A stretch of 64,000 bases of DNA from a bacterium (GTDB taxonomy: Bacteria; Elusimicrobiota; Elusimicrobia; Elusimicrobiales; UBA9959), in NCBI GenBank assembly GCA_021811185.1, contig JAJZPL010000008.1:1-64000 (forward strand), written 5' to 3'. Below, one piece after another: positions 59,394-64,000 of the stretch; position 1 is the stretch's first letter; every line of letters begins with the position of its first letter. The translations under genes were made by a program, and so were the position numbers. The notes below the pieces were generated by a model, which ran no database searches, was not told where the DNA came from, and saw only the letters and a program-made list of their open reading frames with translations.

Positions 59394-60722
59394 ATGACCG
59401 ACATAAAGAAAGTCTGCGAAAAAGTTTTTAAACTGGCCGGCAGGGCGCAGTGCGAAGTGCTGGCGGAAAAGCGCGAGGGCGCGCTGACGCGTTTCGCCGA
59501 CAACGTGATCTCCCAGAACGTGGCCTCGTCCTCGCTGTCTTTCTCGGTGCGCCTGCTGGACGCCGGCCGCTCGGCCCAGTTCAGCTTCAACCAGGCCGAC
59601 GACGGCTCGCTGAAGCGCGCCGTGGCTTCCGGCCTGGAGATCCTCCGGCGCCAGAAGAAGGACCCGGCGCTGCTGCCGCTGGCCAAGCCGCGCCCGCTGG
59701 CCGCAGGCCAAGCTCTTTACGACCGGGAGACGGCGGAACTGTCGCCTTCGTTCCGCGCCTGCAGGGCCGCGGAGCTCGCTAAAGCCTGCGCGAAAGCCGG
59801 GCAGGTGGCCTGCGGCACCGTAGAGAACGGAGTAGAAGGCTACACGATCGCCAGCAACCTGGGCCTTTACGCCGAGCACCTGGAAACCTACGCCATGCAC
59901 AGCGTCACGGTGCGCGACCGGGACGGCTCCGGCTGGGCGGAGCAGCCCTCCCACCGCGTGAGCGAGATAGATTTCAAGCGCCTGAACGAGACCGCCCGCG
60001 CCAAAGCCGCGGCCAGCCGCGCCCCGCGGGAAATAAAGCCCGGCAAATACACCGTTATCCTGGAGCCCAACGCCGCGGTCGGCCTGCTCTCTTACCTGGC
60101 GGTCTACGGTTTCGGCGGGCAGCTTTATAACGAAGGCCGCTCCTTCACGGCCGGCAAGCTCGGCAAAAAGGTGCTGAGCCCGCTCCTGTCGATGGAGGAC
60201 AACTCGCTGGACGGCGGCGCGCCCGGCCTGCCCTTCGACTTCGAAGGCCAGCCGCGCACCAAGGTGGCCCTGGTGGAGAACGGCGTGCTGAAAGCCGTGG
60301 TCCACGACCGCAAAACGGCGAAAAAGGCGCGGACGGCCTCCACCGGCCACGCGCTGCCCCAGCCCAACGGCATGGGCCCCATCCCCCTCAATGTGGCGGT
60401 AAAACCCGGCCAGGGCACACTGGCGGACCTTATAAAGGGCACGGAGCGCGGCATCCTCGTCACCCAGTTCCATTACACCAACCTCCTCAAAGCCCGGAAC
60501 GTGGAAATGACCGGCATGACCAGGAACGGCACCTTCATGGTGGAGAACGGGAAGATCGCCTACCCGATAATGAACATGCGCTTCACCCAGAACATGGTGG
60601 AAGCCTTCGGCAATATAGAGGCGGTTTCCGCCGAGACCGGCCTGGTGGCCGAGTGGGGCCGCATGCGCTGCCCCGCCATGCGCCTGGCCGGCTTCAACTT
60701 TTCCTCGTCGACCAAGTTCTAA
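59394..60722 (+). CDS. pmbA: TldE/PmbA-family metallopeptidase subunit
   Basis: 'AVGLLSYLAVYGFGGQLYNEGRSF', 'EMTGMTRNGTFMVENGKI'. Confidence 0.88.
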   Translation: MTDIKKVCEKVFKLAGRAQCEVLAEKREGALTRFADNVISQNVASSSLSFSVRLLDAGRSAQFSFNQADDGSLKRAVASGLEILRRQKKDPALLPLAKPRPLAAGQALYDRETAELSPSFRACRAAELAKACAKAGQVACGTVENGVEGYTIASNLGLYAEHLETYAMHSVTVRDRDGSGWAEQPSHRVSEIDFKRLNETARAKAAASRAPREIKPGKYTVILEPNAAVGLLSYLAVYGFGGQLYNEGRSFTAGKLGKKVLSPLLSMEDNSLDGGAPGLPFDFEGQPRTKVALVENGVLKAVVHDRKTAKKARTASTGHALPQPNGMGPIPLNVAVKPGQGTLADLIKGTERGILVTQFHYTNLLKARNVEMTGMTRNGTFMVENGKIAYPIMNMRFTQNMVEAFGNIEAVSAETGLVAEWGRMRCPAMRLAGFNFSSSTKF

Positions 60723-60779
60723 AAAATAGAGAAGAAGCACCCTTTAACAGGAAAGAGCGGTCAGCGCGACATTAACGGA

Positions 60780-60906
60780 GGGCCGGGCGGAGATCTACCC
60801 TGAACACCCGTTGCGGAAGGGGGCCCCGCCATCAAAGTTAGGCGGGGGGAACCGACGCAAGGGTTCCCTGCAGTCCGGGTGGGCAGGGCAGATCCCCGCC
60901 CGACCC
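60780..60906 (-). ncRNA. candidate structured RNA/repeat element between pmbA and tldD
   Basis: Closing stem 60780-60802/60884-60906, P2 60805-60810/60876-60881, hairpins 60825-60846 and 60847-60868, potential pseudoknot 60811-60815/60856-60860. Confidence 0.4.
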
Positions 60907-60952
60907 GACTGTGCATCTCGCGGTTCTTAATTTTAGTTCTTAGGAGATAATT

Positions 60953-62398
60953 ATGTTCAAACTCGCCGCCAAAGCCATAGAAGTAGCGAACAAGCACCGC
61001 GTCGATTTCGGGGACATCCGCGTAGTCGAGGACCGCAGCCAGTACCTGGCCGTCAAGAACGGCGAGATCTCCGGGCTGAACGACACCACCACGCTGGGCT
61101 ACGGCGTCCGCGTGCTCTACAAGGGCGCCTGGGGCTTCGCCTCGGGCCGGGACATGACCGAGCGCGCGGTGGCCGACACCACCCTGAAAGCTATCGCCAT
61201 CGCCAAGGCCAGCGGCCTGCTGATGCGCGGCAAAGTGCGCCTGGCGCACGAGCCGGCCCACACGGACTTCTGGCAGACCCCGTTCCTTAAAGACCCTTTC
61301 GCCGTGCCGGTGCAGACAAAACTGGACCTCATGTTCCGCCTCGACGCCGTGCTTCGGAAAAACAAAAAGATACGCGTGGCCGCCACCAGCATGCGCTTCA
61401 TCCGCGAACACCAGTGGCATATGACCACCGAGGGCTCGCGCATAGAACAGGTGCTGCTCTCGTCGGGCGCCGGCATGACCGCCACCGCCGTGGAGAACGG
61501 CGAGTCGCAGCTGCGCGGCTACCCGTGCTCGCACGGGGGCCAGACGCTGGGCGGCGGCTGGGAGATCATAGAGGCCATGGACCTGCCCGCCCACGCCGAG
61601 CGCGTGCGCGACGAGGCCGCGGCGCTGCTGAAGGCGCCGGCCTGCCCGTCCGGCGTGAAGGACCTGATAATTTCCGGCAACCAGCTGGCGCTGCAGATCC
61701 ACGAATCCGTCGGGCACGCGTCCGAGCTCGACCGCGTGCTGGGCTACGAGGAATCCTACGCCGGATCCAGCTTCGCCACCACCGAGAAGCTCGGGAAGTT
61801 CCGCTACGGCTCGCCGATCGTCAACCTGGTGGCCGACGCCACCGTGCCGGGCGGGCTGGCCACGGCCGGCTACGACGACGACGCGGTGGAAGCCCAGCGC
61901 TGGCACATCGTTAAGGACGGCGTGCTGTCGGGCTACATGACCAACCGCGAGTTCTGCGGCCGCATCGGCAAAGAGCGCTCCTGGGGCTCCTGCCGCGCGG
62001 ACGGCTATTCTAACATCCCGATAACCCGCATCTGCAACCTGAGCCTGATGCCGGGTTCCACCCCCATGGAACAGCTGGTGGGGGAGATAAAAGACGGCGT
62101 CATGATGGAGAACAACGTTTCGTGGAGCATAGACCAGAAGCGCCTGAACTTCCAGTTCGGCTGCGAGATAGGCTGGCTGGTGAAGAACGGCAAGAAGGCC
62201 GGAATGGTCAAGAACCCCACCTACCAGGGCATTACGCCCGAATTCTGGGGCTCCTGCGACGCGATAGCGGACCACAGCCAGTGGCGCCTGTGGGGCGTGG
62301 CCAACTGCGGCAAAGGCCAGCCCGGCCAGACCGCGGCCATGTGCCACGGCTCCAGCCCGGCGCGTTTCCGCAAGGTTAAAGTGGGAATTCACGGCTAA
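60953..62398 (+). CDS. tldD: TldD-family metallopeptidase
   Basis: 'QIHESVGHASELDRVLGYEESYAGSSF' HExxxH. Confidence 0.93.
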   Translation: MFKLAAKAIEVANKHRVDFGDIRVVEDRSQYLAVKNGEISGLNDTTTLGYGVRVLYKGAWGFASGRDMTERAVADTTLKAIAIAKASGLLMRGKVRLAHEPAHTDFWQTPFLKDPFAVPVQTKLDLMFRLDAVLRKNKKIRVAATSMRFIREHQWHMTTEGSRIEQVLLSSGAGMTATAVENGESQLRGYPCSHGGQTLGGGWEIIEAMDLPAHAERVRDEAAALLKAPACPSGVKDLIISGNQLALQIHESVGHASELDRVLGYEESYAGSSFATTEKLGKFRYGSPIVNLVADATVPGGLATAGYDDDAVEAQRWHIVKDGVLSGYMTNREFCGRIGKERSWGSCRADGYSNIPITRICNLSLMPGSTPMEQLVGEIKDGVMMENNVSWSIDQKRLNFQFGCEIGWLVKNGKKAGMVKNPTYQGITPEFWGSCDAIADHSQWRLWGVANCGKGQPGQTAAMCHGSSPARFRKVKVGIHG

Positions 62399-62421
62399 AT
62401 AGGGCCGCAGCGGGCTTAACG

Positions 62422-62448
62422 AAAAAAAGCGCTTTATGCGCTTTTTTT
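62422..62448 (+). terminator. intrinsic terminator
   Basis: AAAAAAAGCGC-TTTAT-GCGCTTTTTTT. Confidence 0.9.
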
Positions 62449-62645
62449 CATTTGACTTGGGCCCGCCAAATATATAATATATAGATATCCTAATAGAAAT
62501 AGCGCGGTAAGGCGGTTTTGTTCACTATTTTGTAACGTTTTTAGCCACCAAAACAGCGTTTCGGGCCGAGAGCAAAAAAGTTACCAACATAAATAATCGT
62601 TATAAAACAAGCGCTATTCAAGTATTGAAAGATTTTATTAACAGT

Positions 62646-62665
62646 TGTGGATAACTTGTGGATAA
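62646..62665. promoter_or_regulatory. two perfect DnaA boxes (TGTGGATAA), candidate oriC/dnaA autoregulatory site
   Basis: 62646-62654 and 62657-62665, downstream of an AT-rich tract. Confidence 0.8.
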
Positions 62666-64000
62666 CTTAACCGATATCAAGGAAATCTGGCAAAAGGTGA
62701 TGGAAAACCTGGGCGCTGAAATAGGCGTGCAGGCGATCGACCTTTGGATACGCCCGATAAAACCTCTTTTCATTGAGGGAGACACCTTTAAGTTGGAAGT
62801 TCCTAATTCCATAATTTATAATACGGTAAAGAGCCGCTACGAGGAAAAAATAGCGGCCCTGCTGTCCGCGCTGTCCGGAAGGGACCTTAAAATAAGTTAT
62901 TCCATGTCGATGGCCCCGACGGAACAGGAGACCGTGCCGGCCTATAAGCCCGAACCCTCCGCGCCGGCCGCTCTTCCCGCGAATTATTTTTCCTTCAACC
63001 CGAACTACACCTTCGAATCCTTCATCATGGGCACGTCGAACCGCTTCGCCTTCGCGTCGGCGGAAGGCGTGGCGAAAACCCCGGGCCAGACCAACCCTTT
63101 CTTCATCTACAGCGCGCCCGGCCTGGGCAAGACGCACCTGCTGCACGCCATCGCGCACGGCATTTTCAAGAACAACTCCCAGGCCAAGATCCTCTACACC
63201 GCCAGCGAGAACTTCGTGAACGAATATATCGACGCGGTGCGCCACCAGGGCACGGAAGCCTTCCGCAGCAAATACCGCAAGCTCGACTGCCTGCTGCTGG
63301 ACGATATCCAGTTCCTGGTGGATAAAGAGCGCAGCGAGGAAGAGTTCTTCTACACTTTCAATTCCCTTTTCGAGTCCAAAAAGCAGATAGTAGTGACCTC
63401 GGACCGCCCTCCCCGCGAGTTGGCGCTCGGGCAGCGCCTTATATCCCGCTTCCTTTCCGGCGTGGTGGCGGACATCAAGATCCCCGATTTCGAGACCCGC
63501 GTGGCCATCCTGCGCCAGAAGCGGGACCAGCACAAGTACGACATCCCTGACGATATAGTCACCTTCATAGCCGAGAACGTCAAAAAGAGCATAAGGGAAC
63601 TTGAAGGCTGCCTTATCACCGTGGGGAACTTCTGCTCCAACATGAAGATCCAGCCCTCCATAGACGCCGTGAAGGAAATAATAAAGGACCACATCACGGA
63701 CCCGGAGCACGATGATAAGAAGGTCACCATAGAGCTCATTAAGGACGTGGTGGCCGCCAAGTACAACATGGAGATCAAGGATTTCAGCGCCAAGAAGCGC
63801 ACCGAGGCCGTGGCTTTCCCGCGCCAGGTGGCCATGTACCTGGCCTGCTCCATGACCGACATGTCCCTGAACGACATAGGCGACGCCTTCGGCCGCGACC
63901 ACGCCACCGTGATGTACGCCAAGAACAAGATAGGGCAGATGGTGCAGACCGACCCCTACTTCAACGAGACTTTAAACCAGATGATCTCCAAGATAAAGAA
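62658..64000 (+). CDS. dnaA: chromosomal replication initiator protein DnaA (partial, GTG start)
   Basis: Reads VDNLTDIKEIWQKVMENLGAEIG...; 'FIYSAPGLGKTHLLHAIAHGI', 'LLLDDIQFL', 'GDAFGRDHATVMYA'. Confidence 0.95.
   Translation, partial: MDNLTDIKEIWQKVMENLGAEIGVQAIDLWIRPIKPLFIEGDTFKLEVPNSIIYNTVKSRYEEKIAALLSALSGRDLKISYSMSMAPTEQETVPAYKPEPSAPAALPANYFSFNPNYTFESFIMGTSNRFAFASAEGVAKTPGQTNPFFIYSAPGLGKTHLLHAIAHGIFKNNSQAKILYTASENFVNEYIDAVRHQGTEAFRSKYRKLDCLLLDDIQFLVDKERSEEEFFYTFNSLFESKKQIVVTSDRPPRELALGQRLISRFLSGVVADIKIPDFETRVAILRQKRDQHKYDIPDDIVTFIAENVKKSIRELEGCLITVGNFCSNMKIQPSIDAVKEIIKDHITDPEHDDKKVTIELIKDVVAAKYNMEIKDFSAKKRTEAVAFPRQVAMYLACSMTDMSLNDIGDAFGRDHATVMYAKNKIGQMVQTDPYFNETLNQMISKIK

Follow-up and report, generated by a model that had tools for sequence, protein, structure and literature searches.

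The tldE-tldD locus and its structured element

The window (the whole stretch of 64,000 nucleotides that was analysed) carries pmbA/tldE and tldD with dnaA directly downstream of tldD (window 60953-63998), and between the first two genes lies the compact multi-stem element studied here (Table 1). Re-reading of the sequence showed that the segments and coordinates in the original prediction, which had been made from the sequence alone, are all correct, and folding confirmed 23 consecutive closing pairs on the minus strand. The minus-strand fold has an energy of -90.8 kcal/mol (z -7.1, with 0 of 200 shuffles as good) and the plus-strand fold one of -88.4 (z -5.9); on either strand the fold is far more stable than in shuffled sequences, and the structure is therefore well beyond chance. 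The inner stem CACCCG/CGGGTG and both hairpins are present in the window copy and are kept in its relatives. While the structure had been placed exactly, the proposed length of 127 bp was too short, as the covariance model match, the conserved 3' tail and probably also the inserted DNA extend beyond the closing stem. The statement that the element matches no named RNA class held up: scans of the window element and of the relatives covered against Rfam 15, at gathering and at loose thresholds and with HEARO/IscB RNA and ribozymes included, gave no matching family. A 12-nt likeness to an IscB omega-RNA was tested against the HEARO model and gave no match, and we rejected this identity. Nothing in these sequence data suggests self-cleavage.

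Table 1. Features of the element and its surroundings in the window. R1 is a covariance model built from 43 copies, and R2 is R1 widened with distant members.
Feature	Position	Strand	Basis or remark
Element body	60776..60922	+	Full-length match to R1 (141.7 bits, 4e-33) and R2 (1.1e-21)
Closing stem P1, 5' arm	60780..60802	+	Folding and covariation
Closing stem P1, 3' arm	60884..60906	+	Folding and covariation
P2 5' strand CACCCG	60805..60810	+	Sequence and covariation
P2 3' strand CGGGTG	60876..60881	+	Sequence and covariation
Joining strand TTGCGGAAGG, conserved	60811..60820	+	C or G at base 4, coupled to the hairpin 2 loop base 3' of CGCAA
Hairpin 1	60825..60846	+	Compensatory changes in stem
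Hairpin 2	60847..60868	+	Near-invariant loop CGCAA (ACGGGA in other families)
3' tail GACTGTGCATCTCGCGG	60907..60923	+	Common to many genus copies and to copies of related genera; retained in the G003 remnant
Probable left target-site duplication AGTTCTAA	60715..60722	.	Overlaps the tldE stop codon; suggested by empty sites
Probable right target-site duplication AGTTCTTA	60935..60942	.	7/8 match; suggested by empty sites
Probable inserted unit	60723..60934	.	Most relatives are without it
Flanking gene pmbA/tldE	59394..60722	+	
Flanking gene tldD	60953..62398	+	

A dispersed intergenic repeat and its insertions

The element is not a single-copy RNA but one copy of a dispersed intergenic repeat. 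BLASTN found 8 good copies in its own genome, and the covariance model R1 found 18. Within the genus it occurs in all 32 genomes searched, at 1 to at least 91 copies each, where 95 candidates were scored per genome and the top count (91, in genome G006) is a lower bound. A search with R2 found it in 59 of 342 Elusimicrobiota genomes, representing 20 of 100 genera and at least eight families, all of one class and with a patchy pattern of presence. Scanning GTDB genomes with a pattern gave 119 stretches, and among the matches listed the titles named Elusimicrobia or bacterial MAGs, together with one actinobacterial record that is probably a chance match. Plasmid and phage collections gave no match to the element at blastn sensitivity. 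We found no description of such repeats in Elusimicrobia in the open-access literature, and the family is apparently undescribed before.

With a simple ORF caller rather than curated annotation, only 4 of about 146 copies overlap predicted ORFs, and the distance to the next gene has a median of 35 nt. Copies in tandem gene gaps are oriented with the genes in 38 cases and against them in 33 (p 0.64), while the other gaps comprise 23 convergent and 12 divergent ones, a distribution of gap types that departs from background gaps through over-representation of the convergent class (p 0.016). Moreover, opposite orientations were seen at orthologous gaps (L002 and L010 versus L095 and L107; L143 and L018 versus L138 and L021).

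Several copies are accompanied by further modules. Another structured repeat, about 150 nt long (AACGCAAAACGC..GGCCACACCGTGGCC..GCCCGCC..TTATGCAAGCGG..GGTTTTGCTAACC), often precedes the element (L030, L033, L038, L047, L051, L061, L064, L077, L119, L127, L129, L144 and others), and in genomes G024 and G045 the two are combined into one unit about 340 nt long. Some copies from different genomes (L022, L264, L265 and L273) have an optional accessory hairpin (GAAGCTATGCTAGTGCCGT...ACGGC) inserted beside hairpin 2, and in two G006 copies (L263 and L264) a long inverted repeat of the AAAAAGGTGCCAGCC type lengthens hairpin 1.

In most congeners the tldE-tldD gap is empty and about 8-40 nt long, and the window copy is therefore an insertion. 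The gap is filled by full elements in the window genome and in G012, where the subtypes differ, and in G003 (L159) it holds a remnant whose 5' and 3' ends are joined and whose core is gone, which would be expected for a palindrome deletion. Since the left border AGTTCTAA recurs as AGTTCTTA, an imperfect 8-bp duplication, comparison with the empty sites places the probable ends of the inserted unit (Table 1); just inside this probable duplication a weak terminal inverted repeat match (9/11) can be seen by eye. The 97 standard genus copies, that of the window included, show no clear general excess of duplications (12 versus 9.6 by permutation).

Young copies in two other genomes decide how the family inserts. 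Units in G202 start with GTAAGGGTTTAGCGC and end with its complement, giving terminal inverted repeats of about 30 bp, and with ends left unadjusted their 8-bp duplications match at 6-8 of 8 positions in 9 of 10 copies (five of them perfect), with the tenth perfect after a 1-nt shift; mispaired flanks, as a control, give a mode of 1-2 matching positions. G006 units are 165-171 bp long with a 14-bp terminal inverted repeat, GTAACTACTCAGGT, and perfect 8-bp duplications (CTGGAATG, CTTGCTTA, GAATAATC, GACTATGA and GAGTAGCG). In fact G006 derivatives of only 58 and 81 bp, which are without the core, also have perfect 8-bp duplications, so that mobility may not require the core, unless the core was lost after insertion. 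The terminal repeats themselves are entirely different between G202 and G006. What we observe is thus a set of short, non-coding, dispersed intergenic copies with, in these two genomes, terminal inverted repeats and target-site duplications, and the 14-30 bp repeats and 8-bp duplications of the young copies point to a MITE-like family mobilised in trans. IS66-type elements have GTAA ends and an 8-bp duplication, and both are also found in the G006 and G202 copies; however, an IS66 transposase was found in none of the 14 repeat-carrying genomes searched. ISL3 was represented only by fragments, in one genome, and the one IS256 found, in G006, is without the TIR of the repeat; searches with PF03050, PF00872 and PF01610 gave no transposase with matching ends in these draft genomes, which often lose IS copies.

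Pairing and strand bias of the core

In an alignment of 43 copies 97.2% of pair cells hold standard pairs, compared with 82.5% after shuffling, and the covariation score is 0.433 as opposed to 0.154 for shuffled and at most 0.091 for slid controls. The phylum-wide alignment of 36 mostly distant copies has double changes in 30 of 37 pairs and a score of 0.642 versus 0.182 shuffled, though it was fitted to the structure and so leans towards it. Compensatory changes thus exceed both kinds of control.

The original prediction had read a wobble asymmetry in the window copy as a sign of a functional minus-strand RNA. For this copy the asymmetry stands (three A.C and no G.U on the plus strand), but the family shows the opposite: with the arms aligned so that G.T and A.C receive equal scores, 100 copies have on the plus strand 143 G.U (G.T) and 22 A.C. 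These counts make the plus strand the constrained one, and on them we rejected a functional minus-strand RNA. Copy by copy, 70 of the 100 prefer the plus strand and 8 the minus strand, the window copy being among the 8, and distant families lean the same way (33 versus 17 for plus). Stem changes at gene gaps shared across genomes, where some copies are probably independent insertions and not orthologues, comprise 90 double changes that keep the pair, 40 single changes to or from G.U, 1 A.C, 8 other mismatches and 7 doubles that do not keep it. The core, with its long closing stem, inner stem and two adjacent hairpins, is by these comparisons of sequence kept by compensatory change and as a plus-strand fold. 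Arm-to-arm templated repair of the palindrome could make some of the compensatory change, though not the strand bias. In one pair of copies from two genomes (L004 and L013) the closing-stem pairs are identical while the flanks are only 78-83% identical, which may reflect either conversion or strong local constraint.

Outside the stems, the sequence of the joining strand is TTGCGG or TTGGGG and that of the hairpin 2 loop CGCAAG or CGCAAC, and the two vary together: in 100 copies C occurs with G in 42 and G with C in 54, with one clear exception. This differs from the pseudoknot that had been proposed between TTGCG and CGCAA. Such a helix is possible in the window copy, but 54 of the 100 copies have TTGGG against an unchanged CGCAA, which does not support it as a conserved 5-bp helix; it would need as partner of the joining-strand C the G within CGCAA, a base that stays constant when this C changes, and the pseudoknot is therefore unsupported as drawn. 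The coupled partner is a different base, the one 3' of CGCAA.

Comparison with known repeats and interpretation

ERIC/IRU/RU-1 (127 bp) is similar to the Elusimicrobia family in being small, intergenic and present in many copies, with long stem-loops, terminal inverted repeats and target duplications. We know of no sequence relation between the two, which we compared by description. ERIC transcripts can affect mRNA stability (PMC2229807, PMC10969869). ERIC ends in TA (PMC2229807), whereas young copies of the Elusimicrobia family end in GTAA with 8-bp duplications, and the latter has in addition a core that branches into two hairpins and covaries across the class. Identity with ERIC was rejected on these ends and on the hosts, which in the searches made are Elusimicrobia and not enterobacteria. 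The Correia (NEMIS) repeats of Neisseria are MITEs whose ends are inverted, and RNase III cleaves their RNA stem in transcripts (PMC2229807, PMC10969869); inversion of copies is reported there as it is seen here, but host phylum, ends and target differ. BOX, RUP and SPRITE of pneumococcus are likewise intergenic folded repeats, and BOX is modular (PMC3049150); the Elusimicrobia family too can carry accessory hairpins and a module upstream. The hosts, however, differ, and RUP has an IS partner, being linked to IS630-Spn1 at TA targets (PMC2229807), whereas the Elusimicrobia family is without a known one.

Taken together, the dispersed copies, empty sites, target duplications and covariation bear out the suggestion of an RNA-level mobile or repeat element, and we favour, with a probability of about 0.7, a non-autonomous MITE-like repeat of the class Elusimicrobia with a conserved plus-strand RNA fold that probably acts on read-through transcripts. 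A cut-and-paste DDE-type transposase supplied in trans would move the element, and an inserted copy would be read through from neighbouring genes and fold in the transcript, where the fold might have a local effect on how the RNA is processed or how stable it is, in the way known from ERIC and Correia repeats (PMC2229807, PMC10969869). The plus-strand pairing would then be kept by selection that acts on the transcript or during a single-stranded stage of the life cycle.

Other readings account for parts of these data. The core might be a trans- or self-acting RNA (a cofactor, guide or ribozyme) for the movement of the element itself, its fold kept for mobility and not for host expression; this would fit a core conserved over at least eight host families between terminal repeats that differ completely in G202 and G006, a strand-specific constraint and the almost perfect C/G to G/C swap, but the core-less 58-81 bp units carry perfect duplications, no partner protein was found, the ends resemble those of an ordinary DDE-type MITE and there is no Rfam ribozyme or guide RNA match, and we consider it unlikely. 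About as doubtful, to our minds, is the wider suggestion of a class of RNA-dependent transposable elements, in which the core RNA would be exchanged between end pairs and act in trans or in cis with a putative protein, in mobility or in host transcript control. That the family is a neutral MITE, with arm complementarity owed solely to hairpin-templated correction in replication, appears improbable: arm complementarity of a palindrome can be maintained mutationally, and copies are dispersed and many of them old, yet symmetric correction would not lead one to expect either the excess of G.U over A.C or the 40 single changes to or from G.U against 1 A.C, and across the class both inner hairpins are conserved together with their loops.

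Still less probable is that the structured strand serves as single-stranded DNA for a recombinase or HUH transposase (REP/RAYT, IS200/IS605 or attC type) with the RNA irrelevant. Structure on one strand with tolerance of G.T would also suit a DNA hairpin, as would palindromes and intergenic spread; IS200/IS605 and integron systems, however, do not make 8-bp target duplications with terminal inverted repeats, both of which are present in young copies, and the element ends showed no recognisable attC-type core sites. A riboswitch or leader RNA of the downstream gene, duplicated by chance, is mostly refuted and has very little left to recommend it. It would agree with an intricate, conserved core in intergenic positions that are often near the next gene, but an orientation that is random relative to flanking genes and reversed between genomes within one gap argues against it, as does the over-representation of convergent gaps, and with no fixed orientation upstream of a gene set we rejected it.

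The repeat is abundant in a poorly studied phylum, whose draft genomes it also breaks up. It is usually the ends that define a bacterial MITE, whose interior is free to vary. The Elusimicrobia family reverses this pattern: its ends vary by lineage, and the part maintained over at least eight host families is the branched RNA core. Lineage-variable ends around a core held by compensatory change make the family a case in which selection on a mobile repeat's transcript can be tested. It is best read as a new repeat family of MITE/ERIC-like kind, unusual in that an RNA core conserved across the class sits between ends that can be exchanged.
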